DNA from: Phycisphaerales bacterium
Lineage (GTDB): Bacteria > Planctomycetota > Phycisphaerae > Phycisphaerales > UBA1924
Length of the DNA stretch: 64,000 bases
Assembly (NCBI GenBank): GCA_029260295.1
Contig: JAJDDN010000007.1
Span: 186,001-250,000 of the forward strand
Direction: 5' to 3'
In this document: positions 8,165-44,512 of the stretch, in pieces
Numbering within the stretch: the first letter of the stretch is position 1
Layout of the letters: each line of letters opens with the position of its first letter
Translations under genes and position numbers: made by a program
The notes under the pieces: generated by a model
The model's input: only the letters and a program-made list of their open reading frames with translations
Databases searched by the model: none
What the model was told of the DNA's origin: nothing

Positions 8165-9383
8165 AGCGCATGCACATCTGTTCCAACTCGGGCGTTCGCT
8201 GACGATGCTGGACTGCTCCGGATGCCAGAGCCGGGAGGCGATGCTCGATTCAATCGAGGCATTCTGCCAAAGACTCAAACCAAGCGATTGGGTACTCGCC
8301 CACAGTGTACGCCCCGAGGGTTGGGCGGACCCCAGATGGCCATCACGGCAGGAACTCGATCATGCCAGCGACAACCGTCCTGCGTGCGCGTGGTGTTTCG
8401 ACTACCACTCGATGGGAGCATCATCATCCGCACTCGCACACGCGGGGATCTCCGGGGACACCACCATCGACCGCGGCATCATCGAACTCGACAACGATGG
8501 CACCCCGACCGGCGTGCTCTTTGAACACGCCGCGCTCAAGCTGTGGTCGTCCGTCCCCGAGCCCGATGCAACGCAGCGCCGATCGCATGTCCTGAGCGCA
8601 TGCCTGCACCTGAGCAAGCTCGGGTTCACGGAGGTCCATGATCTCAAATCCCAGCCCTGGCTCGGGCAGGTGCTGCATGATCTCCAAACTGCAGGCGAGA
8701 TCACTCAACGATTCCAACTCTTCCCGCTCACCAAAGATCTCGATGCGACCATTTCGACACGCGACCAGTGGGAATCTGACAAGCTCGTACTCGCGGGAAC
8801 CAAGATCTTCACCGATGGTTCGCTCAACTCGCGTACCGCGTGGATGCTCGAGCCGTACACCGACACACACACGACCGGCACTCCAATGATGACCGCTCAA
8901 GAAATCGACGACGCGATGCTCAAGAGCAAGGCCCACGATCTCCCAGTTGCGGCCCATGCGATCGGCGACGCCGCCGTCCGGGCGGTGCTGGACTCAATTG
9001 AACGGACACAGTGCACGAACATGAACGCACGCATCGAGCACGCCGAGCTGATCCATCCAGGCGACATCGCCCGCTTTGTTGAGCTTGGCGTGATCGTATC
9101 GGTTCAGCCGTGCCATCTGCTGCCGGACATCGAGGCACTCAACACGGGACTGGGCGACCGGCTCGATCGGGTGCTCCCGCTCCGTTCATTGATCGAGTCA
9201 GGATGCATCCCCGGTAAAACCCTTATCTTCGGATCCGATGTACCCATCGTCCGTGCTGATCACCAAGACTCAATCCAAGCGGCTGTCCACAGACGACGCA
9301 ACGGCATGCCCGATTCAGAAGCCATCGGCCTCAACCAACGGCTGACCCGCGACGAATCGCTCGCGTGCTTTGGCGTTAACTGA
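8157..9383 (+). CDS. Amidohydrolase family protein (YtcJ-like, amidohydrolase_3)
   Basis: KIFTDGSLNSRTAWM, PVAAHAIGDAAVRAVLD, RIEHAELI, SDVPIVRAD. Confidence 0.88.
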   Translation: MREAHAHLFQLGRSLTMLDCSGCQSREAMLDSIEAFCQRLKPSDWVLAHSVRPEGWADPRWPSRQELDHASDNRPACAWCFDYHSMGASSSALAHAGISGDTTIDRGIIELDNDGTPTGVLFEHAALKLWSSVPEPDATQRRSHVLSACLHLSKLGFTEVHDLKSQPWLGQVLHDLQTAGEITQRFQLFPLTKDLDATISTRDQWESDKLVLAGTKIFTDGSLNSRTAWMLEPYTDTHTTGTPMMTAQEIDDAMLKSKAHDLPVAAHAIGDAAVRAVLDSIERTQCTNMNARIEHAELIHPGDIARFVELGVIVSVQPCHLLPDIEALNTGLGDRLDRVLPLRSLIESGCIPGKTLIFGSDVPIVRADHQDSIQAAVHRRRNGMPDSEAIGLNQRLTRDESLACFGVN

Positions 9384-11394
9384 GAACTTCGTCATCGAGC
9401 GGGATCCGGAGCTCGAACTCCGCACCGTGGCCACGCTTGCGGATCAATGAAAGATCGCCGCCCATCTCCACAGCCAATCCACGCGAGAGCGCGAGCCCCA
9501 GTCCCAGCCCTGAACGGTCACGCAGTGCCGATGAAGAACCACGCACAAACTCGCCAAAGATCTTCCGCCGGTCTCGGCTGGCAACGCCCGGGCCATGATC
9601 CGCTACAACAAGCAGCAGCGAATCCCCCGCGACCGATGCGTCGAGATGCACACGAAAATCCGATTCCTGATCCGATTCCGAATCGGCCCCGGCATACTTG
9701 CACGCGTTGTCCATCAGGTTCATCACGATCCGTTCAATCGCATGTGGATCGAGAGTCACCGTCCGCTGGGCGTGGTCGCCCGTTTCATCGGACACCATGA
9801 GGTCCATCCCGGACTGCTCGCCCAGCCGCGACATCGGGGGGACGATGCGTGCGATAAGCTCGCCGACTGAGAGCCGTTGCTCGCCCTTGGGCTTGTCCTT
9901 GCCGTAGCGCTGGCGGGAGATCCGCGCGTATTCGAGCACATTCTCCACGATCCCGGTGAGCCGATCGGATTCTCGTTTAAGAGTATTAAGATAATCTTTG
10001 CGGACCGCTTCATCGGTCACCATCCCGTCGGCGAGCATCTGTGAGTACAAACGAAAGGTTGTCAGCGGGGTCCGCAGCTCGTGCGTGACCGCCCCGACAA
10101 AGTGCGCCCGCCTTGCAGACATAGTCAGCACCGTCCGCAGCACGATGCCAACAGCGATCATCGCGAGGATCACCGCGACCCATGTCACCAGCATCGCCAT
10201 CATCGCGGGAGTCAGCCTATCACCTGCGACATCGACCGCACCGCCCGGGATAAACGACACGGGCACAGTGGCGAGCCGGTACGACGGGAGTTGCCGCCCC
10301 CGCTTGCCTTTGGTCTGCACAGGATGATCGCTGGTGATCGGGACGAGCGTTGAGGTCGGGAGAAGATCGCCGATCGATCCGAGGAGCTCGCCCGACATGC
10401 TTGCCCAGTCGAGCCAGACCCCCTGAACGACTTCGTGCCCATCGCGCTGGATCGTTCGTGTCAGCACAAGCTCATGGGTGCCATCATCACGCAGCACCCA
10501 GCGTGGCTCGATCGCGCCGACCACATCCTGGATCTCTTTTGCTTCACGATTCTTTGCCCAGTTTTCGTCATCGAAACTGCCCGAGTTATCGAAACGCCCC
10601 GAGTCATCCATTTCTTTCTGATTTACTTTCTGATCAATATCCGCACTTTCAAGTTTCTCTTTACTATCCGCTTTGCGATCATCAACGATCGAGGTCCGTG
10701 AAGCACCAACAGCATCACCGGAGACAAATCCAGTAGAAACAGGTGTCGCATCAACAATCTCTTCCAGAGCCGGGCTCGCAGATAGCGACTGGCTGTTTTG
10801 AGCGATGTTGGCGATCTGCTGCCTCGCTTCAAAGTCCGCCTCGGAACTGGTAGGAATAGTAACTGAACTCTGAAGGGCCAACGCATTCGAGTTCGTAATC
10901 CCACCCTCATAATCCCGCACAGCCATCACCGGCTCGCTCTCGCTCTCCTTCGCAATCAAGCCCCCATCGAGCACCTGCTGCTGCGTATTGGTCAGCATCG
11001 CGATCGCGTCGGCCTCGCTCCCCGAGCCCTTGGTCGAACCGAGCTCGTCGATCTCAAAGAATCCGCGTGCATAATCTCTCCCCACGAGCACCTTCTTGGT
11101 TTGCTCGGAGGAAACCCTCATGCGGTCACCCATTGCCGACAACGGAACCGAATCCAGCACCATTTCATAATCCTCGATTGGGCGTGCCGCCTCAAGGGCG
11201 ATCATGGGCGCGAGCCGAGAATCCATGCGCCAGAGCGCGAGCCGGATGAGTTCTTGGCGTTGGTTCATAGCCCGAGAAACGGCGCTGCGGGCCTCGAGCG
11301 TGTACACCGTAATGCTCGCCCAGCTCAGCGCGGCGACGATTAATAACACCCCGCCCCAGAACGCCCACCAGAGTTTGCTCCGGCCTTTGGTCAT
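9376..11394 (-). CDS. Membrane sensor histidine kinase
   Basis: HELRTPLTTFRLYSQML H-box, NLMDNACKYA N-box, GPGVASRDRRKIFGEF and GLGLALSRGLA ATP-lid motifs; two TM helices. Confidence 0.93.
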   Translation of the reverse strand: MTKGRSKLWWAFWGGVLLIVAALSWASITVYTLEARSAVSRAMNQRQELIRLALWRMDSRLAPMIALEAARPIEDYEMVLDSVPLSAMGDRMRVSSEQTKKVLVGRDYARGFFEIDELGSTKGSGSEADAIAMLTNTQQQVLDGGLIAKESESEPVMAVRDYEGGITNSNALALQSSVTIPTSSEADFEARQQIANIAQNSQSLSASPALEEIVDATPVSTGFVSGDAVGASRTSIVDDRKADSKEKLESADIDQKVNQKEMDDSGRFDNSGSFDDENWAKNREAKEIQDVVGAIEPRWVLRDDGTHELVLTRTIQRDGHEVVQGVWLDWASMSGELLGSIGDLLPTSTLVPITSDHPVQTKGKRGRQLPSYRLATVPVSFIPGGAVDVAGDRLTPAMMAMLVTWVAVILAMIAVGIVLRTVLTMSARRAHFVGAVTHELRTPLTTFRLYSQMLADGMVTDEAVRKDYLNTLKRESDRLTGIVENVLEYARISRQRYGKDKPKGEQRLSVGELIARIVPPMSRLGEQSGMDLMVSDETGDHAQRTVTLDPHAIERIVMNLMDNACKYAGADSESDQESDFRVHLDASVAGDSLLLVVADHGPGVASRDRRKIFGEFVRGSSSALRDRSGLGLGLALSRGLAVEMGGDLSLIRKRGHGAEFELRIPLDDEVLS

Positions 11395-12110
11395 GAACTT
11401 TCACCACCGCTGTTGTCGGGAGCCGCAAGCATATAGCCCTTGCCCCGAACCGTCCGGACCACTTCTGGATTGGTCGGATCATCATCGAGCGTCTCACGGA
11501 TCCTTGCGATCGCCATGTCGACCGTCCGCGTGTGTGTCCCGCGCGGGTCAAGCCCCCAGACCTTCTGCAGCAGTTCGTCACGCGACACCGCCCGACCCGG
11601 ATTGGCCGCCAGGAACCCGATGACCTCCGCCTCACGCTCGGTCATCGTCCGGCGCGAACCATCTACAAGTACCACCTCGCGGCGTTCAAAATCGATCTGC
11701 CTCCCCGCGATCGCCATCTTCTTCCGCTGCGACGGACGCGCAGGCATCCGCCGGAACACCGCCTCGATCCGCGCGATCAGTTCATCGAGCGAGAAGGGTT
11801 TGACAATGTAATCATCCGCCCCCAGCTTGAGCCCACCGATCCGGTCGCTCTCTTCGCCCCGAGCAGTCAAGAAAATCACAGGCACATCGGGCTTGGGCTT
11901 GCGGAGCTCGCGCAGCACCTCGAGCCCATCCATCTTGGGCATCATGATATCGAGCAGCACAAGATCCGCTTCGATGCTCAGGCACATCGCCAAGCCTTGC
12001 TCGCCATCGCTCGCCTCGTGGACCGTGTACCCCGTATACGACAACGCATCGACCAGGCCCCGCCTGATCGAATCGTCGTCCTCCACTACAACCAATACAC
12101 CTAATGACAA
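11391..12110 (-). CDS. OmpR/PhoB-family response regulator
   Basis: REC domain (VEDDDSIRRGL, DLVLLDIMMPKMDG, FLTARGEE, KPFSLDEL) plus winged-helix (GTHTRTVDMAIARIRETL). Confidence 0.95.
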   Translation of the reverse strand: MSLGVLVVVEDDDSIRRGLVDALSYTGYTVHEASDGEQGLAMCLSIEADLVLLDIMMPKMDGLEVLRELRKPKPDVPVIFLTARGEESDRIGGLKLGADDYIVKPFSLDELIARIEAVFRRMPARPSQRKKMAIAGRQIDFERREVVLVDGSRRTMTEREAEVIGFLAANPGRAVSRDELLQKVWGLDPRGTHTRTVDMAIARIRETLDDDPTNPEVVRTVRGKGYMLAAPDNSGGESS

Positions 12111-12133: not shown

Positions 12134-13636
12134 TTACCACGAATAGTGAACCGTATAAGTAACAATACCTTCTTCGTCGGGCTCAAGTGTGACCGGGACA
12201 TGCATAGTTCTTGCATCAAGCATCTCATAGTCGTGCGAGATCTTCTGAATGTCCGCGTTGGACCAGCGGTAGAGCCGTTCCTGCACGACGACATCGACAG
12301 GCACATCCTTGCGATTCCGCAGCTTGACCTCGATCGTCTCGGTGATCCATCGCTTGCCACGCTCAAAGCTCACCTGGCGACGCTCGCCAACCACATCAAA
12401 CGCGTTGCCGAGTTTGATCATGATCGTTTCACCCTGAGGCGTGTGATCAATAACCTCCTCACCAATAAACTCATACGCCCCGTCCGCCTCGTCGAGCTGA
12501 TTGACCCGCATGCGCCCCGATGGCAGCGGGATCCCCATCCCGTTCTCCTCGGTGTTGTCGAATCGCAGGAACACCGCGACCTTCGAGTTGGACTGTACGC
12601 CCCAGTTCTGATCCATCATCGCAGCGTTGCCGTTCCACCGCGCCTGGGCGGTGCCGTCGTACATCATGATTTTTTCGGTCGGTACCCCGTTGACGGCCTC
12701 GAAGAGTTCGATCTGCTTGGTCGAACGATCCGGGATCGTGGTCGGGCGACCGAGTGTGTAGAGGTGGTATTCGAAGAATGATTTTTCAACAAACCCAGCG
12801 GACTTCCCTGCGGTGTCCATTCTCGACATACCCTCGAACCGTGCGTACTGATTCTGCGGCTGCGCGCGATGCACATCACCCGCGACCAGCTTGAGCTTCG
12901 CATCTTCGTAAGAGCCGCCGGATTGATTCAGGATCGAAACCCACGCGCCAATATCAATCGTCCCATGATTCGCATCCTTGCCCTCGGTATAAACTAGGTT
13001 GTAGTCTGCCCACCAGGTAATACCAGTAGTCTGATACGAAACCCGCGTCTCGTGTTCGCCGCCTTTATTTGCATCGACCTGCCACATGAGCGTCGGCTTG
13101 GTGACCAGCGATTCATCAAGCGACGGGAACACCACGCCGCTATATCCCTGCTGGAACTGAACACGCCCGTCATCGAGCTGCAGCAGCATCCCACCCGCGG
13201 CCGTCGACATGAGCGTCACTTCCTGACCGTTATGAATAATTGTCTGATCAATATACCGCTCGAGCATCCGCCCCATCGACAGCAAATCAAACCGGTAGCT
13301 CTGTTCGAGCACGCTGGTCCCATCTGGGTCGGTCAGCGACGAGAACCGGACGGTCGTCGGATCGAGCAGCGCCGCCACATCGGTGAACTTGAGCTCACTG
13401 AGCCCCTTGTCGATTTCCAGCGTCCGGTCCTGACGGATCACGGCGTAGCCGGGGATCTGGTTGTACCGGTTGTACCCGTACCCCTGCGATTGCCCGGGCA
13501 CCGGGCGGTACCACTCGGCGGGGATCGCCCCGGGAGCGGCGGTCGAATAAATCGTCAGCGCGGTGTCATCGGCGAGGGCCAATCCGCTCATGCCAAGAAG
13601 AGTTGCCGCGATGGTCAGTGCCTTGATCGTGTTCAT
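12134..13636 (-). CDS. DUF4139 domain-containing secreted protein
   Basis: Signal peptide; 'VSYQTTGITWWADYNLVY' and 'RFDNTEENGMGIPLPSGRMRVNQ...AYEFIGEEVIDHTPQGETIMIKLGNAFDVVGERR' typical of DUF4139. Confidence 0.85.
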   Translation of the reverse strand: MNTIKALTIAATLLGMSGLALADDTALTIYSTAAPGAIPAEWYRPVPGQSQGYGYNRYNQIPGYAVIRQDRTLEIDKGLSELKFTDVAALLDPTTVRFSSLTDPDGTSVLEQSYRFDLLSMGRMLERYIDQTIIHNGQEVTLMSTAAGGMLLQLDDGRVQFQQGYSGVVFPSLDESLVTKPTLMWQVDANKGGEHETRVSYQTTGITWWADYNLVYTEGKDANHGTIDIGAWVSILNQSGGSYEDAKLKLVAGDVHRAQPQNQYARFEGMSRMDTAGKSAGFVEKSFFEYHLYTLGRPTTIPDRSTKQIELFEAVNGVPTEKIMMYDGTAQARWNGNAAMMDQNWGVQSNSKVAVFLRFDNTEENGMGIPLPSGRMRVNQLDEADGAYEFIGEEVIDHTPQGETIMIKLGNAFDVVGERRQVSFERGKRWITETIEVKLRNRKDVPVDVVVQERLYRWSNADIQKISHDYEMLDARTMHVPVTLEPDEEGIVTYTVHYSW

Positions 13637-13746: not shown

Positions 13747-16104
13747 TTACTTTGGATTCTTCACCAAGATCCGCTTGCCATGGTTCATCAGCTCGATCTC
13801 GCCACGATTGGCGATCATCCACTGACGCCCCTGATCAGCCAGATCATCAACGAGCGACCAGTACGCATCGGTCGCAAACTCGACGGTGTCATCGATCGCC
13901 TGCTCAACCTCGGCCGTGACCGAGACATCCACCCAACGCCCGGCCTTGCGGTAAAGCGTCGAGCCCGTACCACGCTGGACCGTCGAGATCGTGACATGGT
14001 TCATATCGGCATCGTAATACCGGTTGCTCTTGATCATGCCACTTGATTGAACAACCGCATCGGAAGCAACCCGCGATTGCAAGGATGTCACTCGTTGATC
14101 CTTGCGATTCAAGGACTGAGATATGCCCCTACTACCAGAGCGTGCCTTTGATTTCTCTTCGGATTCCAAGAACGCCCTCCCATCCATGAGGCTCACACCA
14201 TTCTCATCCTGTTCCACCAGTGATTCAAACGCCATGTCCTCGGTCGCCAGGAACGCGGTGTACTCGGTCATGATCCCGTGCTCCAATGACAAACTGGTAA
14301 TCTCATCAACGAGTTCCGTATCGGGCTCCGACCCATCAGCTGTGGAAACCCGGATCTGACTGATCAACGAATCGATCCGCTGCTGGGCCCACAACCGCGG
14401 GATAAAGCTGTACTTGGTGGAGGCCTCGTCATTCGAAACATGACTCCCGAGCGTCGCGATCTGACCGTCCCGATCACCCGACAACCGGAGCCACAGGGGC
14501 ATACCGCTAAGGTTCTCGTATTTCCCAAGTACTACGACACGCGAGCCATTATACAAATCACCCAACCCGTCGTCCTCGACGCTGAACACCTTGGATCTGC
14601 GGATTAAATCTCTTGTTTCTTGGGTCATCCCCGTGCCGCAGAACCCGCCTACGCCGCCCGTAAACTCAACCCCGGTCATGACCGGGCCGTTGAGCTTGTC
14701 GAACACCCGCCCAACCTTGATCTCGACATCCTCACCGGGCAGCACAAAGGTGGACTCGCCCTTGGTTCCTTGCGCGATGGCATCGAGCAATGGAGCGTTG
14801 ACATCAAACCCCAGACCGAAGGTGAAGACACGACGGTTCGCCGTATTGTTCTTGATCGCGGCGTCGCGGATCTGCACTTCACCATTCGATGCCAATCCAT
14901 CGGTCATAAACAAGACCAACGGCAGCACCCCCTCAACGCTCGGCTGCCGCAACGCAACAACAAGCGCATCGAGGAGATGCGTCCCTCCTCCTGATTGAAT
15001 GCGTTCTATGTACTGAATCAGATCCTTGCGAGAATCCTTGGTAATCACAACAGAACCATCTGCAAAGGAACGAACATCACCGCTGTAATCCACGATGCTG
15101 ATCCGCTCGCCGATCGCCATGCCATAGACGATTTGCTTTGCGGATTCCTTCGCCTGTTCGATTTTTTCCCCGCCCATTGATCCGGACCGGTCGATCACGA
15201 TGGTCACCTCGCGGAGCATCGGGCTCTGGTCGGAATCGACCGGATCCGGCGCGTCAGCCACAAACATAAAGTACCCGCTGCTCTCACCGGTTGGGTACAT
15301 CAGCACCGTTGGCTCACCAGTCAAATCGCCGGTTGATGCGTACAACACAAACGCCCCAGGCTCATCAAGCATCGGCACATCCACGCGCAGCCGAGAACCA
15401 CCCTCGGGCGTGCTGACGATCGGATGCGAAGGCGAGAACACCGCCCCGAGATTATCACCGGACGACTCGACCGCGATCTCAAGCTCCCACTCGATCGACG
15501 AATCAGCCACACCCGCTGAACGCGGGAGCACATACTCCACCGTCCCCCTATGCGCCTCGAGGACTTGTTCATAGGCAATCGTCACCGTCCGCTCAGACCC
15601 CGGCTCAACCGGGAACACGCTCGACTGGATCATCGCGTTGCCCACAAACTCAAGTAATCCCGGATCAACCATCTGACGCACGATCTCGTGGTATCTTCGT
15701 GTCGCCTCAGCACGCGGGAGCAGCTCTGCGGTCGGCTCATCACCGATCCCATCTATTCCGAATGTATTGATCGCAGCGCCGTCCGGCACCGGGACCACCA
15801 CCCGCGCCTGGGCACGGCGATTGGTCGGGTTATGCACCACCATAGTCAAAGTGGTCGTCGCGACACTCCCCACGATCCGAACTTCGGCGTGCACAGATTG
15901 AACCGCGGTAACCACACCAACCCCCGGCACTGCGATCGACCGCTGAGGCACAAGCACCCGAATCTGATCCGATCCGATCGGCTGGCTGCAAGCTATAGAA
16001 CTTCCCGCTCCGATCACGATGGCCGCCGCCAAACCAACCGGGACGAATCCCAATCCGCTCAGACTCATTCCCATTCCCAAAACGCTTCGATTCATCAGGT
16101 TCAT
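13747..16104 (-). CDS. VIT (inter-alpha-trypsin) and von Willebrand factor A domain protein, secreted
   Basis: VIT domain (VVPVPDGAAINTFGIDG..ATRRYHEIVRQMVDPGLLE), VWA MIDAS DRSGSMGGEK, SD AAGGAG before ATG at 16104. Confidence 0.92.
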   Translation of the reverse strand: MNLMNRSVLGMGMSLSGLGFVPVGLAAAIVIGAGSSIACSQPIGSDQIRVLVPQRSIAVPGVGVVTAVQSVHAEVRIVGSVATTTLTMVVHNPTNRRAQARVVVPVPDGAAINTFGIDGIGDEPTAELLPRAEATRRYHEIVRQMVDPGLLEFVGNAMIQSSVFPVEPGSERTVTIAYEQVLEAHRGTVEYVLPRSAGVADSSIEWELEIAVESSGDNLGAVFSPSHPIVSTPEGGSRLRVDVPMLDEPGAFVLYASTGDLTGEPTVLMYPTGESSGYFMFVADAPDPVDSDQSPMLREVTIVIDRSGSMGGEKIEQAKESAKQIVYGMAIGERISIVDYSGDVRSFADGSVVITKDSRKDLIQYIERIQSGGGTHLLDALVVALRQPSVEGVLPLVLFMTDGLASNGEVQIRDAAIKNNTANRRVFTFGLGFDVNAPLLDAIAQGTKGESTFVLPGEDVEIKVGRVFDKLNGPVMTGVEFTGGVGGFCGTGMTQETRDLIRRSKVFSVEDDGLGDLYNGSRVVVLGKYENLSGMPLWLRLSGDRDGQIATLGSHVSNDEASTKYSFIPRLWAQQRIDSLISQIRVSTADGSEPDTELVDEITSLSLEHGIMTEYTAFLATEDMAFESLVEQDENGVSLMDGRAFLESEEKSKARSGSRGISQSLNRKDQRVTSLQSRVASDAVVQSSGMIKSNRYYDADMNHVTISTVQRGTGSTLYRKAGRWVDVSVTAEVEQAIDDTVEFATDAYWSLVDDLADQGRQWMIANRGEIELMNHGKRILVKNPK

Positions 16105-16165
16105 ATGTGGTCTCCTTGTGTACATGCTGTACGAATAGAGATACCAACCTATTGCCCGTCAGGTC

Positions 16166-16260
16166 GTCACACGAATGTCACACCCGCCCCGCATACTTGC
16201 AATGTCACACGCGTGTCACGCGGCCGTCACAGCCGTGTCACACCGATCTTGTCCTGTCAC
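16166..16260 (-). promoter_or_regulatory. Direct-repeat array of TGTGAC (GTCAC on + strand), mostly 11-bp spaced; candidate OmpR/PhoB-type binding region
   Basis: GTCAC begins at 16166, 16177, 16204, 16215, 16226, 16237, 16256: spacings 11, 27, 11, 11, 11, 19. Confidence 0.65.
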
Positions 16261-16273
16261 TCAGAATCGCGAT

Positions 16274-17674
16274 TCAGTCCGCGCTACGGACAATCAGCTT
16301 ATGCGGCAATAAAATTGTGACAAATCCCGCAATCGCAAGCACAACCGCGGTCCCCATGAACGCCGCGTCGATCCCCATCCCATCAATCAATCCAGATTGC
16401 ATGGAATCAGGCAGCCGTTCCACGATCCACATCACAAACCCCGGCACATGTGACTTGGAACCCAGCCCGTTCTGCACCACCTCAGCACCCAGCGGCCCCA
16501 AAAACGACAACGACCACGCCCCGCCGAGCATCAGCCCCGACACCAAACTCGTCCGGTGCGGCAATAACCGCTGTGAAAGCGACATACTCACAGGGATCGC
16601 CGCCCCGAACCCGACCCCAGACAACACCGACGCCCCCATCACCATCCATCGTCCGATCTCGGGATCCATCGCCGTCAATCTCGGGATCATCGCGATGCAC
16701 ACCGCTCCAAACATCGGCAGAATCACAAACACGGCCTTCTCAAACCGAGCCGCCAGAATAAACCCGAGCGTGAGCCCCGCCCCGCCCATCCCGACCTGCA
16801 TCGACGCTTGCAGCGTCCCGTTGACCTGCGACGCCTCGATCCCGAGCTGGTCGGTCATCGACTCGGTTCCATTTCGAGCCAGCACATACTGCGAAGCCCA
16901 CTCGGTAAACAGATACATCAGCGCCATGTTGGTTGTAAACCGCAGCACATTGCTCGCATACAACACCCAGACCGCGAACCACCGCCAGAAGCGTTCCCGC
17001 TTGTCCCATCCGTCCTGATGTTCATGGGCCGCGTGATGGCGGTGCCCGGACTTGTGGATCGCCATCGCCAGAACCAACGCCGCGATGAGTCCGATCGGGA
17101 TGAACCAGCGGATCGCAAGGAGCCCGTCCTTGGCATTGGCACCGTTCTCGATCGCCACCGCATCGGGTGTCATCCATTCAACAAACTGAGGCGTGAACAC
17201 ATTGCCCACGACGCCGCCGATCATCCCCGCGAGGAAGAACACCGCGACATACATCGATCGGCGCCCGCTGAGTTGCCCCATCCGCCCCACTGTTGCCGCT
17301 GCGGGCGGATGGAACGCCCCGATCCCCATCGCGCCGATGCTGTACAAAATAGCCAGTTCAGTAAAGTCCCGCGCCATCCCCAGGTTTCCAATACACAACA
17401 CAGCAACGACAAATCCGACTGTCCCGAACGCCCGCGAATCAAACCGATCACTCGCCCACGCGACGATCGGCTGGACAACCCCGGAGCACACCGACCCCAA
17501 CGCAAGCAGGAGTGCCTTCTGTTCAGGGCGGATATCGAGCATCACCGCGAGCATCGGCAAGAGCGCCACCCCGATGAACGAGAACACATCGACGACAAAG
17601 TGCGCGCCGATGGTCACCGCCGCACGCAGCGGGGCCTTTGATACCGATCCGTCGTTGTTCTGACCAGATTCCAT
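16274..17674 (-). CDS. MFS transporter (fosmidomycin-resistance-like)
   Basis: About 12 hydrophobic segments; ASDRFDSRAFG loop; GIGAFHPPAAATVGRM. Confidence 0.85.
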   Translation of the reverse strand: MESGQNNDGSVSKAPLRAAVTIGAHFVVDVFSFIGVALLPMLAVMLDIRPEQKALLLALGSVCSGVVQPIVAWASDRFDSRAFGTVGFVVAVLCIGNLGMARDFTELAILYSIGAMGIGAFHPPAAATVGRMGQLSGRRSMYVAVFFLAGMIGGVVGNVFTPQFVEWMTPDAVAIENGANAKDGLLAIRWFIPIGLIAALVLAMAIHKSGHRHHAAHEHQDGWDKRERFWRWFAVWVLYASNVLRFTTNMALMYLFTEWASQYVLARNGTESMTDQLGIEASQVNGTLQASMQVGMGGAGLTLGFILAARFEKAVFVILPMFGAVCIAMIPRLTAMDPEIGRWMVMGASVLSGVGFGAAIPVSMSLSQRLLPHRTSLVSGLMLGGAWSLSFLGPLGAEVVQNGLGSKSHVPGFVMWIVERLPDSMQSGLIDGMGIDAAFMGTAVVLAIAGFVTILLPHKLIVRSAD

Positions 17675-39221: not shown

Positions 39222-40445
39222 TCAGAAAAGCAACTGGATCTGCGCCGTAACCGCGAACTGATCTGTAGTTGAATCCGGGAGCAGGTTCCCCCTGATCGAT
39301 ACGATGGATTCCGTTGTTGCATCTGGGTAGTGCTGGACTTCAAGGGTGAACTTGGCCGCGTGTGATTCGGGGATGATGTAGTGGTTCCAACCAACAGTGA
39401 ATGTGTTGAAGTCATTGGAACCCGATACACCCACCACTGTGGGGTTTGAATCCGATGGCATGATCAGATCCCAGCGTGCAAAGAACTCGTCGTGATCAGA
39501 AACGAACACGCCGCCCTGCAAGATGAAAGCACCATCGGTGAGTGTCATCGCACCGGTGTTCATAGAACGCCAGGTGCCCGCAGCAAAGAGATTCCACCCG
39601 TCACCGAGCAGCGACGCGTCTGCGGTGAATGTAGTCATCTCCGTTTGGGGAACTGTTGATGGGTTGGTATTGCCCATCCCCTGGTAGTTGGCGGCGGCCC
39701 CGAGCAGCAGCCCGCCGGTGGCACCGCGCCACGAGGTAAACTGCTTGTACTGAGACCATGACGCCTCGCCGAACTTCAGTTCACCGCGTGCGGTTACTGC
39801 GTAGTCCGCTTCGACCGCCGAGGAAAAGAAGGTATTGTCGGTCCCGAATCCGTCATTGAAGCTGCCGATCAGCCGCCAGTCGTCATCGGTTATAATTAGC
39901 TCAACACCCTGGGTGAAGTCTTGATTGATTGTTTCATTTGCAGCTGATCGGTCGGTCGCGAGCTGCTTCGATGAGGAGATATTTTCTTCTCGGATCAGCC
40001 CCGGCTTAAACTGACCCGCACGGAAGGTGACCGTGTCGCTGAGCTTCCATTTGAGGACTGCACTCTCAAGGGCCGCCCCGCCGGAGGACTGGCTAAAGGA
40101 AAACTTGATCTTGGCCGAGATGTCATCGGTGACCTTGCCCTCGATCCCGACCTTTGTCCGGCGAGTTGTGAATCCGAGCGTGAGATCGTTCTTCGGCCCC
40201 GCCAGCGTGGTGCTGTCATCGCCGCGTTTGTTGATGCTGTACCTGAACTGGGTGTGGATACTCACTTTAAGTGAATCGGGAACTGCCGATCCTAGCAATG
40301 AAAGGCTTTCGGATTCTGCTAGAGAATATGCGTGCGTAAGCTCGAGCAGCCGCTCGGATTCATCTCCCGCATTCGCGTTTCCGACCAAACTACCCGCCAG
40401 TGCAGCAACGATTGTGGCGTTCTTTAGGATCACATCAGACTCCAA
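39222..40445 (-). CDS. Porin, OprO/OprP-like
   Basis: Signal peptide; 'IHTQFRYSINKRGDD...LGFTTRRTKVGIEGKVTDDISAKIKFSF', beta-barrel pattern and terminal LLF. Confidence 0.75.
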   Translation of the reverse strand: MESDVILKNATIVAALAGSLVGNANAGDESERLLELTHAYSLAESESLSLLGSAVPDSLKVSIHTQFRYSINKRGDDSTTLAGPKNDLTLGFTTRRTKVGIEGKVTDDISAKIKFSFSQSSGGAALESAVLKWKLSDTVTFRAGQFKPGLIREENISSSKQLATDRSAANETINQDFTQGVELIITDDDWRLIGSFNDGFGTDNTFFSSAVEADYAVTARGELKFGEASWSQYKQFTSWRGATGGLLLGAAANYQGMGNTNPSTVPQTEMTTFTADASLLGDGWNLFAAGTWRSMNTGAMTLTDGAFILQGGVFVSDHDEFFARWDLIMPSDSNPTVVGVSGSNDFNTFTVGWNHYIIPESHAAKFTLEVQHYPDATTESIVSIRGNLLPDSTTDQFAVTAQIQLLF

Positions 40446-40617
40446 TTTCTAAAAGTATCACGACGAAGACCACAACTGACCTTCATGTATTGTTATAGCT
40501 CAGAATGAGACTCAAATGATAAAGCATCCGGTTAAATACTCTTAATGATTACCCCGCTGGCGGCTCCACTGATCCCCCCAGAAAGAGCCCGAATCTCAAT
40601 GGTACTCTAAAAAAGAA

Positions 40618-40643
40618 CGGGAGGGACCCGAAGGTCCCTCCCG
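40618..40643 (-). terminator. Intrinsic terminator of the upstream porin gene
   Basis: Perfect 11-bp stem CGGGAGGGACC-CGAA-GGTCCCTCCCG followed on the minus strand by TTCTTTTTT. Confidence 0.85.
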
Positions 40644-40685
40644 TGATTACATCAGATGATGTTGATCGTTGTCAGATTCGCAAAC

Positions 40686-41966
40686 TCAGAAGAGGAGCGA
40701 GAACTGGCCACGGATCATGAGATCGCTCTCAGTGGTTGGAGCAGTACCGCCAATGAAGCCGGTTGTCTGCATGTCACCAAAGCCACGGGTATCGAGGCCT
40801 GAGGTGTCATCGAGACCGAAGGATACATCGACCGAGAAACGGGCGGCGTATGACTCTGGCACGAGGTAGTAGTTGAAACCAACGGTGAATGTCGAGTAGG
40901 CATCGTCGTCGGTTGCTGCGAGTGGGGTGATTGCTGCCAAGTCATCATCAAGAATGATCATGTCGTAGCGAGCGAATGCTTCGAACTGCTCTGTGAAGAA
41001 CATGTTACCCTGGAGGACCAAACCGTCGTCGGTCTGGTCGGCGGAGCCACCAGCGATGAGGTCGTTGTCAACATTGGTGCTCTGGTATGAAGCAAAGACG
41101 CCCCAGCCGTCGCCTTCGTACTGCGCGTCGATTGTCCAAGCAGTAACGGTAGCGGTATCGATAGGAGCGAGTGATGGGTTGGTGTCACCAGCCTGTGACC
41201 AGTGGAAACCAGCACCGACGCGGAAGCCGGTGTTTGAGCCCTGCCATGAGGCGAAATCGCTGAACTGGTCCCAGTTGCCTGAGACGAGCCAGTCAAGACG
41301 ACCGCTGACAGAGAAATCTGATTCTGCACCGGAGGTGTAGAAAGTGTTTGCTGAGGCAGGGCCGTCAGCGAGCACTACGGTGAACTTCCACTCGTCGTCC
41401 GAGTAGTTCAGGCCGATGCCCTGAGCGTAGCCAACATCGAAGAACGAGTTGGTAAGTGAACGCTCAACACCCTGAGAGAACTCAGGAGCTACATTTGATT
41501 CCCAGCTGAATGGGTTCTTGAGCTGACCGAACAGGAATGTCCAGTTATCATCGAGGCCCCATGTGCCGTATGCTTCGCGGAGGGTTGCACCACCGTCGCC
41601 GCCTGCACCAGCTGATGCACCGTGATCGAAAGCACCACCGAAGTCAAACGAAACGTGACCTGTGATGTCAGTACCTTCAACGCCACCGCTCATACGAACC
41701 TGAGTACGCGGGGTTGAGAAACCAACAGTTGTGTCAGCGTCACCGAGAGTGGTGGTTACCACTTCGTCACGGCTGTCGTAGGTGTAACGGAACTGGGTAA
41801 AGATCGAAACATCGAGTGCCGAACCTGATGAACCGAGGAGGCTCGAACGGGTGTTGGCGTCGGCACGCAGCTCAGCTGCGTATGCACGATCGATGTCAAG
41901 TCCTGATTGAGCCAGCGCCGAGCCGCTCATGGTAACCAAAGCGATGGTTGTAATTGTCTTCTTCAT
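40686..41966 (-). CDS. Porin, OprO/OprP-like (paralog of the preceding gene)
   Basis: Signal peptide; 'IFTQFRYTYDSRDE...VGFSTPRTQVRMSGGVEGTDITGHVSFDF', terminal FSLLF; parallel to 39222..40445. Confidence 0.78.
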   Translation of the reverse strand: MKKTITTIALVTMSGSALAQSGLDIDRAYAAELRADANTRSSLLGSSGSALDVSIFTQFRYTYDSRDEVVTTTLGDADTTVGFSTPRTQVRMSGGVEGTDITGHVSFDFGGAFDHGASAGAGGDGGATLREAYGTWGLDDNWTFLFGQLKNPFSWESNVAPEFSQGVERSLTNSFFDVGYAQGIGLNYSDDEWKFTVVLADGPASANTFYTSGAESDFSVSGRLDWLVSGNWDQFSDFASWQGSNTGFRVGAGFHWSQAGDTNPSLAPIDTATVTAWTIDAQYEGDGWGVFASYQSTNVDNDLIAGGSADQTDDGLVLQGNMFFTEQFEAFARYDMIILDDDLAAITPLAATDDDAYSTFTVGFNYYLVPESYAARFSVDVSFGLDDTSGLDTRGFGDMQTTGFIGGTAPTTESDLMIRGQFSLLF

Positions 41967-42402
41967 TTCAGTGCTCCTTCTCGTTGGGCAGTGATTGTAA
42001 ATGTCTTTTCAAATGAACGAGCCGTAATCCGTACGACCCGCCTCTGACCGACTATAGGCCAGACTAACCTTCGTGAGTTTCATTATTCGACCTTTTGTTG
42101 GCACTAACTATCAATTTTAATCGCCTACAGACAAAATAATCAGCCAATACCCCTTTAAACACTCAAAACAGCCATAAACGCGCAAATCACGCATTTGAGT
42201 TTTCCACACTCTCCACGAGCCTCACCCTAAAATATAGCGTACATAGTGTCAAATTTCGATCTTTTCGACCACCTTGCCCCAAGACTGCACGCAACGGGAA
42301 CTGTTTAGATTCGATGAACTCTGCATTTTCACATTCAAACATCGCTCACACTTCTCTACAGTTGGTTGTCGCGATACGCATTCCTTTACACCGGAGCTCG
42401 TC

Positions 42403-43137
42403 ATGCCTCAATCTAAAGCCATACCACAGACACCCACTGAGCCACTAGTGGTGCTTGTTGTTGATGATGAGCCGGATTTGCGTGAACTGATCCAATACAA
42501 CCTCATTGAGTGTGGGCACTCGGTATTGACCGCCTGCGAGGGGATCTCCGCTCTTGAGCTTGCCCAATCAAAGCTCCCCGATGTCATTGTTCTCGATGTC
42601 ATGATGCCCGGACTGACTGGCATAGAGGTCGCCAAACGCCTGCGATCACAGACTCAAACGAGTTCGATCCCAATCATCATGCTGACGGCGAAGGCTGAAG
42701 AATCCCACGAACTCGAAGGGCTTCATGCCGGCGCCGACGATTACATCACAAAGCCATTCTCGATGCCCATCTTGATTGCCCGCATCAACTCGCTTGCACG
42801 CCGGACAAAAATAGACTCTGATACTGGTATAGCCCTCACGGTTGGTCCGGTATCGATCAATCTCAATGAGCACCAAGTCTTGATTGACCGGGAACCTATC
42901 CGTCTCACCATCACAGAGTTTCGGCTTCTGGCCACGCTCGTCCAATCCAAGGGCAAGGTCTTGACGAGGGCCAATCTCATCAGCCACGCGATCGGACCCG
43001 CTGTTACAGTGACGCCCCGGACGGTCGATGTTCACATCACCGCTCTGAGAAAGAAACTCGGCAACCAAGGCGTACTGATCTCAACGGTACGGGCGGTCGG
43101 ATATCGGATCGATGAACCTGATACCACTCCGAGTTGA
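42403..43137 (+). CDS. OmpR/PhoB-family response regulator
   Basis: VVDDEPDLRELIQYNL, DVIVLDVMMPGLTG, LTAKAEE, KPFSMPIL; winged helix TPRTVDVHITALRKKLG...VRAVGYRI. Confidence 0.95.
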   Translation: MPQSKAIPQTPTEPLVVLVVDDEPDLRELIQYNLIECGHSVLTACEGISALELAQSKLPDVIVLDVMMPGLTGIEVAKRLRSQTQTSSIPIIMLTAKAEESHELEGLHAGADDYITKPFSMPILIARINSLARRTKIDSDTGIALTVGPVSINLNEHQVLIDREPIRLTITEFRLLATLVQSKGKVLTRANLISHAIGPAVTVTPRTVDVHITALRKKLGNQGVLISTVRAVGYRIDEPDTTPS

Positions 43138-43153
43138 TGCTATATATAAGTAG

Positions 43154-44512
43154 ATGGAATCACACAACACCCCAGCACAAACCTCCAGCAGCAGCCCCCC
43201 AAACACGGGGGACACGGATGGGTGGCCGCTCCCGGCATCCATTCTGGCCGGCTCGATCATTGTCAGCTTCTTCCAGCCCATATTTCTTGCTGTTTCACTC
43301 GTCGCATTGATATGGCTCGGAGTTTTGCACCGAGCTTACTCTCGCCGCTTGGTTGGATTGGGGGCCAGGTATCGTCATTCCCATGACGAGATCAGGCACG
43401 CCCAACACTTGGCGGCTCGGATCGGATCAATCCTCGACTCTGCAGATGTCCCCATCCTGGCAACCAATAATGACGGCTCGATAATCCAGGCCAACTTTGC
43501 CGCCAAATCTATACTCGGATCCGGGCGCCCCCTCATAGGCGAACACTTTGATTCACTCATCACGCAGAGTGCCGTACATGAACTCGAGCGGCTCGCACGA
43601 TCCGGTGAGTCCGGGCACGCCCGCCTCCAACTCCCGGTCGGGAGCGACATGCGTATCTTTGATGTCGCGGCCGATCCCATCGCCAGTTCGCGGGGGTCGG
43701 TTTGCACATTCACTGACATCACAGAACTCTCGCGATCGGAGGCGCTCAAGGCTGACTTTGCTGCAAACGCAAGCCACGAGCTCCGCACACCGATCGCATC
43801 GATCATCGGTGCTGTCCAAACCCTCGAAGGCCCAGCAAAGGATGACCCCGCGATGATCCAGCGGCTGATCCAGATGATTTCGTCCAATGCATCACGGCTA
43901 GATCTCATAGTCAAGGACCTGCTTGATCTCTCGAAACTCGAATCGACTCTTGTCCCCGTTGTTCTGAGCCGTATCGACCTGGCCGAGCTGGTCGAGCAGA
44001 ACTCGTTGCCGTTCTTTTCTGTATGCCAGCGCAGGGGGCTGACTATCGAGACTCGGATTGATTCCGATTGCTCAGTCATCACTTCGGATGAGTCGATGCT
44101 CGAACTGATCTTACGGAACCTGATCGGAAACGCGACCAAGTTCGCCCATGAGAACACCACCATTACGATCCACGCCGAGCCGATCACCCTCGGGATTGAT
44201 CCAGCAAGCCCGCCGCCCGACGGGCTTGCCGGAGCATTAGGTGTTCGCATTGGTGTCCGCGACAAGGGGATCGGGATCCCGTTCTCACAGCAGCAGAGAA
44301 TCTTTGAACGCTTTTATCAGGTCGATGAAGCACGCGACGGGTCCTCTGCGCGGCGTGGCACCGGGCTCGGGCTGGCGATCGTCAAGCACGCCGCCAGAAC
44401 CCTGGGAGGGAACATCAGGCTCAAAAGCATCCACCAGCAAGGGACCACCATGATTGTGGAACTCCCCGGTTGCCTGAGCGGCATGGGCGATACCGCCGAT
44501 TCAACACCCTGA
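43154..44512 (+). CDS. PhoR-like sensor histidine kinase (TM + PAS)
   Basis: DFAANASHELRTPIASIIGAVQTL, NLIGNATKFA, DKGIGIPFSQQQRIFERFYQVD, GTGLGLAIVKH. Confidence 0.94.
   Translation: MESHNTPAQTSSSSPPNTGDTDGWPLPASILAGSIIVSFFQPIFLAVSLVALIWLGVLHRAYSRRLVGLGARYRHSHDEIRHAQHLAARIGSILDSADVPILATNNDGSIIQANFAAKSILGSGRPLIGEHFDSLITQSAVHELERLARSGESGHARLQLPVGSDMRIFDVAADPIASSRGSVCTFTDITELSRSEALKADFAANASHELRTPIASIIGAVQTLEGPAKDDPAMIQRLIQMISSNASRLDLIVKDLLDLSKLESTLVPVVLSRIDLAELVEQNSLPFFSVCQRRGLTIETRIDSDCSVITSDESMLELILRNLIGNATKFAHENTTITIHAEPITLGIDPASPPPDGLAGALGVRIGVRDKGIGIPFSQQQRIFERFYQVDEARDGSSARRGTGLGLAIVKHAARTLGGNIRLKSIHQQGTTMIVELPGCLSGMGDTADSTP

Follow-up and report, generated by a model that had tools for sequence, protein, structure and literature searches.

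A tandem GTGAC array as the probable operator of an OmpR/PhoB-family response regulator in a planctomycete VIT/VWA operon

Introduction

The promoter of a planctomycete operon that begins with a VIT/VWA gene carries a dense run of GTGAC repeats, and the question it raises is which regulator, if any, reads them. Regulators of the OmpR family dimerise head to tail on direct repeats. To our knowledge, few planctomycete regulatory sites have been assigned, and a literature search returned no planctomycete study of this operon. The initial annotation proposed a multi-site operator, either for the response regulator encoded further down on the same strand or for a second, PhoB-like regulator at 42403. 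Here the array is examined in the window (the whole 64-kb stretch of DNA that was analysed), in the genome of origin (2.91 Mb, 8 contigs) and in related genomes.

Results

Array layout and operon

The minus-strand gene order is gamma-glutamyltransferase, MFS transporter, array, VIT/VWA, DUF4139-like, response regulator and histidine kinase. The first operon gene (13747..16104, minus strand) encodes a predicted exported protein with VIT and VWA domains (Pfam VIT, 2.2e-19; VWA, 6e-16), and its start is best placed at 16104, behind a Shine-Dalgarno sequence AGGAGA at 16116..16111. It is followed on the same strand by a gene for a DUF4139-like protein (12134..13636; Pfam DUF4139, 3.2e-05, with 24.2 bits under the gathering cut-off of 31.8), an OmpR/PhoB-family response regulator (RR; 11391..12110; Response_reg 1.3e-32, Trans_reg_C 5.6e-22), and, as the last gene, a sensor histidine kinase (HK; 9376..11394; HisKA 1.6e-16, HATPase_c 4.6e-21). 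Cross-genome linkage of motif and gene makes the RR the proposed ligand of the array. The upstream MFS transporter gene (16274..17674, minus strand), assigned by domain search and synteny, serves as a syntenic landmark for the operator.

On the plus strand, GTCAC begins at seven positions (16166, 16177, 16204, 16215, 16226, 16237 and 16256), and both these coordinates and the four steps of exactly 11 bp agree with the initial annotation. The sense (minus) strand reads, in order, GTGACAGGACAAGATCG-GTGTGACACGG-CTGTGACGGCC-GCGTGACACGC-GTGTGACATTG-CAAGTATGCGGGGCGG-GTGTGACATTC-GTGTGACGACC. Read toward the VIT/VWA gene, four GTGAC units at 11-bp steps are followed, after 27 bp, by two more that are 11 bp apart. 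The four distal half-sites (16237..16241, 16226..16230, 16215..16219 and 16204..16208, minus strand) lie at -60, -49, -38 and -27 relative to the first proximal half-site. The latter, half-site A (16177..16181, minus strand), is position 0, and half-site B (16166..16170, minus strand) is position +11. Half-site B ends 22 bp upstream of a -10-like element, GTATCTC (16138..16144, minus strand), a putative promoter element at a fixed distance from it. The seventh GTGAC (16256..16260, minus strand) lies 19 bp from its neighbour, off the 11-bp register, and is missing in the nearest relative as in other relatives. It is therefore placed outside the conserved operator, and the seven-site array first described is reduced to six half-sites, namely the four at 11-bp steps and the promoter-proximal pair.

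The clustering of GTCAC sites is far beyond chance. Among GTCAC pairs 5-59 bp apart in the 64-kb window, four are spaced at 11 bp and all are inside the array; for GTGAC, the same window and spacings gave no pair at 11 bp. The longest 11-bp run in the window is four and the densest 76 bp hold six sites, against simulated maxima of two and four, respectively (600 strand-sets, first-order Markov copy of the window). Slippage does generate short direct repeats, and the array could in principle be a tandem repeat produced by chance or mutation, or one that has no regulatory role. However, the units have only GTGAC in common while their spacers vary freely, the observed run was never reached in the simulations, and the pair with its 22-bp spacing is kept across dozens of genera. 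A chance repeat was rejected on simulation and conservation, and its probability is negligible.

In the 2.9-Mb genome, exact GTGAC-N6-GTGAC occurs seven times, four times in the array and three times elsewhere, and the reversed control pattern occurs four times. The three pairs outside the array, one of which lies within an ABC-transporter ORF, are at background level (3 vs 4).

Conservation within the genus

With the DUF4139-like protein as query against 101 genomes, a match was found in all 21 congeneric genomes. Promoters of the genus have the form GTGAC-N6-GTGAC, 22 bp, and then TATC or similar. A pattern search of 200 relatives recovered the pair with its 22-bp spacing at the operon promoter in 18/21 congeneric genomes. 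The contigs of G005, G007 and G017 stop short of the promoter, so that the element is present in 18 of the 18 that remain. Distal half-sites typically occupy -27, where conservation is highest, and -38, second in conservation, while -16, -49 and -60 are occupied in some species. That at -49 is kept in L038, L040, L041, L053, L140 and L184, and that at -60 is found at the same position in L038 and in L140, which belongs to another genus. L140 also shares the 4+2 layout with the 27-bp gap seen in the window. Together the distal positions fall on a single 11-bp lattice, offset by 5 bp from the register of the proximal pair, and the two steps by which distal sites are reached, 27 bp and 16 bp, differ by one 11-bp unit. 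Exceptions to the lattice are shifts of 1 bp (-26/-37 and -28/-39/-50) and one species with sites at -12/-23.

In one subclade (promoters of L044, L046 and L058), four contiguous half-sites are phased at 11 bp, the distal ones being degenerate, with GTCAC or GTAAC at -22 and GCAAC at -11 in register with the proximal pair. The MAG G001 has the operon in two versions, each on its own contig (L039 and L038), one with VIT/VWA and DUF at 87% identity and one with VWA and DUF at 89% identity. This reflects either a bin that mixes two strains or a second copy of the operon.

Conservation across the family and order

Orthologs of the RR (E <= 1e-75) were found in 64 of the 200 relatives. At 40 RR loci outside the genus, which cover the family and order, a promoter segment of 390 bp around the operon start was compared, and 29/40 loci have an exact GT(G/T)AC pair upstream of the operon. 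These segments contain 35 pairs, all 35 at exactly 11 bp; within the range of 6 to 21 bp, no GT(G/T)AC pair has a different spacing. Across the 40 loci, GT(G/T)AC-N6-GT(G/T)AC was absent from the other 458,976 bp of that strand and from the antisense strand. In nine of the other 11 loci a one-mismatch pair, mostly with GTTGC, is present; these nine were sought post hoc, and their position 22 bp from a -10-like element was no part of that search. Two of the 40 loci (L157 and L183) have no clear pair.

The core consensus is GT(G/T)AC-N6-GT(G/T)AC, 22 bp and a -10-like GTA(T/C). In 37 aligned promoters with the 22-bp spacing, from the genus and the family, the G before TA is invariant, and selection for this alignment required only TA(T/C), not the preceding G. 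Another eleven bases along, a GT is present in about 80% of the 37 aligned cores. The comparison of orthologous promoters supports the initial proposal, the core with half-sites A and B being kept in 18 congeneric genomes and family-wide.

The fixed distance to the -10-like element resembles that of a -35 box, and an alternative sigma factor could in principle read GTGAC as part of a -35 with no RR involved. Half-site B, at 22 bp, is nevertheless several bases further from the -10-like hexamer than a usual -35; sigma promoters do not feature 11-bp pairs or distal arrays; and the element tracks the response regulator gene. A sigma factor as the sole reader of GTGAC is accordingly highly improbable.

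Linkage of the element to the regulator gene

The company kept by the element was compared across loci. In L161, L170, L172 and L173 there is no VIT/VWA gene upstream, and the pair is found 115-177 bp before the RR start; L173 has the order MFS, operator, RR and HK. No pair was found at L062-L067, which are DUF4139-like loci with no RR ortholog linked to them. Retention with the RR after loss of VIT/VWA, together with absence from DUF4139-like loci that lack the RR, identifies the element as a candidate operator of the RR itself, which is the simplest reading. The element goes with the RR gene and not with the VIT/VWA gene. In L042, from a neighbouring genus, neither VIT/VWA nor the ~430-aa VWA gene described below is first, and the promoter is unchanged.

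Under a promoter that stays the same, the first gene of the operon swaps between species, being either VIT/VWA (785 aa) or an unrelated VWA gene of ~430 aa in the same syntenic place (loci covered: 13747..16104 of the window, L038, L040, L041, L045, L047, L051-L053 and L057). Both are present in tandem in L048 and L139. In G022 the DUF4139-like gene is apart from the regulator operon. A GTGAC pair at L056:6796 (plus strand) lies ~90 bp upstream of this detached gene and points away from it.

Candidate regulators

The window contains no 11-bp GTCAC/GTGAC pair outside the array, and inspection of the region upstream of the PhoB-like regulator at 42403 revealed no similar pair. Two porin-like genes, recognised by eye (39222..41966 and 42274..44512), are divergent and adjoin the PhoB-like regulator and a PhoR-like kinase, which suggests a phosphate-response cluster; no GTGAC array was found at this cluster. 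Reading of the array by another regulator, such as the PhoB-like one, with an incidental linkage to the operon, draws on the similar box shapes within the family and on the 11-bp direct repeat used by E. coli PhoB. Against it, the element stays with this RR gene after the rest of the operon is gone, no similar pair is near 42403, and strict forms have no further site in the genome, unlike a Pho regulon. The PhoB-like regulator was therefore rejected as ligand, lacking both linkage and sites, and a reader other than the RR is improbable, although this box could also be recognised by further OmpR-family regulators of the genome. The other ligand named at the outset, the RR on the same strand, gains support from the pair that precedes RR-ortholog operons family-wide, and the array is probably its multi-site operator. 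The locus has three features of an OmpR/PhoB-family tandem operator: a direct repeat of 10-11 bp, a fixed position relative to the promoter, and a cognate RR that is nearby and co-occurs with it.

The closest full-length relatives of known structure to the RR are RegX3 and MtrA. Its best NCBIfam match is the RpaB model (217.8 bits, below the cut-off of 330), and its scores also fall below the cut-offs of the NCBIfam MtrA (181.5 vs 300 bits) and PhoB (187.5 vs 296.2 bits) models and the YycF/WalR model (187.4 vs 340 bits). A covariation of RR residues (the residue before the recognition helix, or G/A in the wing) with GTG or GTT half-sites was considered and discarded. It fits well on few sequences, with exceptions in L161 and L172, and positions across the whole protein sort the half-sites equally well, as shared ancestry would lead one to expect.

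Extent of the regulon

In a search of the genome of origin, a 56-column sequence model of the core matched no promoter but this one (E 1.5e-10, a value that is not independent, as the model was partly built from these promoters, the window's included), with the distal array as a second, weak match. The absence of further model matches in the genome is informative. A relaxed pattern with the 22-bp spacing likewise found only this promoter, and weaker or differently placed sites may exist elsewhere in the genome.

The pair with its 22-bp spacing recurs at one further promoter, in G005 and G008 only (L176, 2313, minus strand; L177, 6737, minus strand). The gene that follows it encodes a predicted secreted protein of 435 aa and lies downstream of an FtsX-like permease gene. 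This protein is a possible second target in these two genomes.

Discussion

The array is very probably an operator for the RR of its own operon, which would thereby be autoregulated. In the proposed mechanism, the RR would bind GTGAC half-sites 11 bp apart as head-to-tail dimers. The proximal pair abuts the -35 position, 22 bp upstream of the -10-like GTATCT, in a promoter whose -35 box is otherwise poor, and the phosphorylated RR may recruit RNA polymerase there and so activate the operon together with its own gene. Extra dimers could be loaded on the distal half-sites, whose 11-bp register is shifted by 5 bp from that of the proximal pair.

The direction of control can be assigned with less assurance. 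Autorepression is frequent among regulators, and up to six dense half-sites might keep polymerase from the -35 position and the DNA upstream of it, so that the RR could bind the array and yet repress its own operon by negative feedback. The proximal pair, however, adjoins the -35 position and does not cover the -10 element or the start, and the lack of a good -35 hexamer fits an activator-dependent promoter. Activation is favoured because a -35 box would start right at the end of the proximal pair and because MtrA sites upstream of -35 activate, while those near -10 repress (PMC3353115). Repression is thus rather unlikely, and activation by the RR at the array is the probable mode.

The E. coli Pho box, an 11-bp direct repeat bound by the OmpR/PhoB-family regulator PhoB, was the comparison drawn in the initial annotation. 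The 11-bp direct repeat holds, but the coding strand there reads TGTCA and here GTGAC, and the nearest analogues are instead the GTnAC boxes of GlnR, MtrA and WalR. In Streptomyces venezuelae the GlnR box is GTnAC-n6-GTnAC, and GlnR arrays follow an a-b-a-b order at 11-bp steps, with one case of a 16-bp gap that was proposed to bend DNA (PMC10704036). Half-site form, 11-bp period and an OmpR-family winged-helix regulator are thus common to actinomycete GlnR (PMC10704036) and the present locus. GlnR, however, is without a known partner kinase and controls many nitrogen genes, whereas here the kinase is in the operon and the phylum is another one; in place of many sites at nitrogen-assimilation genes, as in a GlnR regulon, there is one strict site, at this operon. 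The MtrA motif of Mycobacterium and Corynebacterium, a cG(T/A)nA(C/T) repeat, is likewise a direct repeat with an 11-bp period (PMC6265350), but MtrA controls a large regulon of cell division and the cell wall. The WalR box, TGTWAH-N5-TGTWAH, has the same 6+5 geometry, and the TGTTAC form of some relatives fits it (PMC9210968); WalR differs in its broad cell-wall regulon. Judged by its sequence, the array is a further instance of the known GlnR/MtrA-type box.

The combination of a VIT/VWA protein with a two-component pair also recalls the proteobacterial dedicated-sortase system, and the VIT/VWA protein resembles TIGR03788. Its score for that model is 183.6 bits against a cut-off of 551.65, and no sortase was found among the operon genes examined (VIT/VWA, DUF4139-like, RR and HK).

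A bolder reading, which we regard as possible but doubtful, is that of a self-contained single-target switch, a two-component system kept across a planctomycete family, in which the only strict site is the switch's own promoter, the effectors are exchangeable (VIT/VWA, plain VWA, both or none), and distal half-sites come and go on an offset lattice. If true, envelope VWA proteins would be expressed from a tunable socket with positive feedback and possibly bistability.

In this case a regulator is matched to its box, unusually clearly, from sequence comparison alone, and this yields an operator, a consensus promoter and a self-only regulon hypothesis for an uncharacterised envelope operon. GlnR/MtrA-type boxes are thereby seen outside the actinobacteria, and the promoter appears to outlive the genes that it serves. 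In this little-studied group of planctomycetes, the RR would set both its own level and the production of VWA-type envelope proteins.
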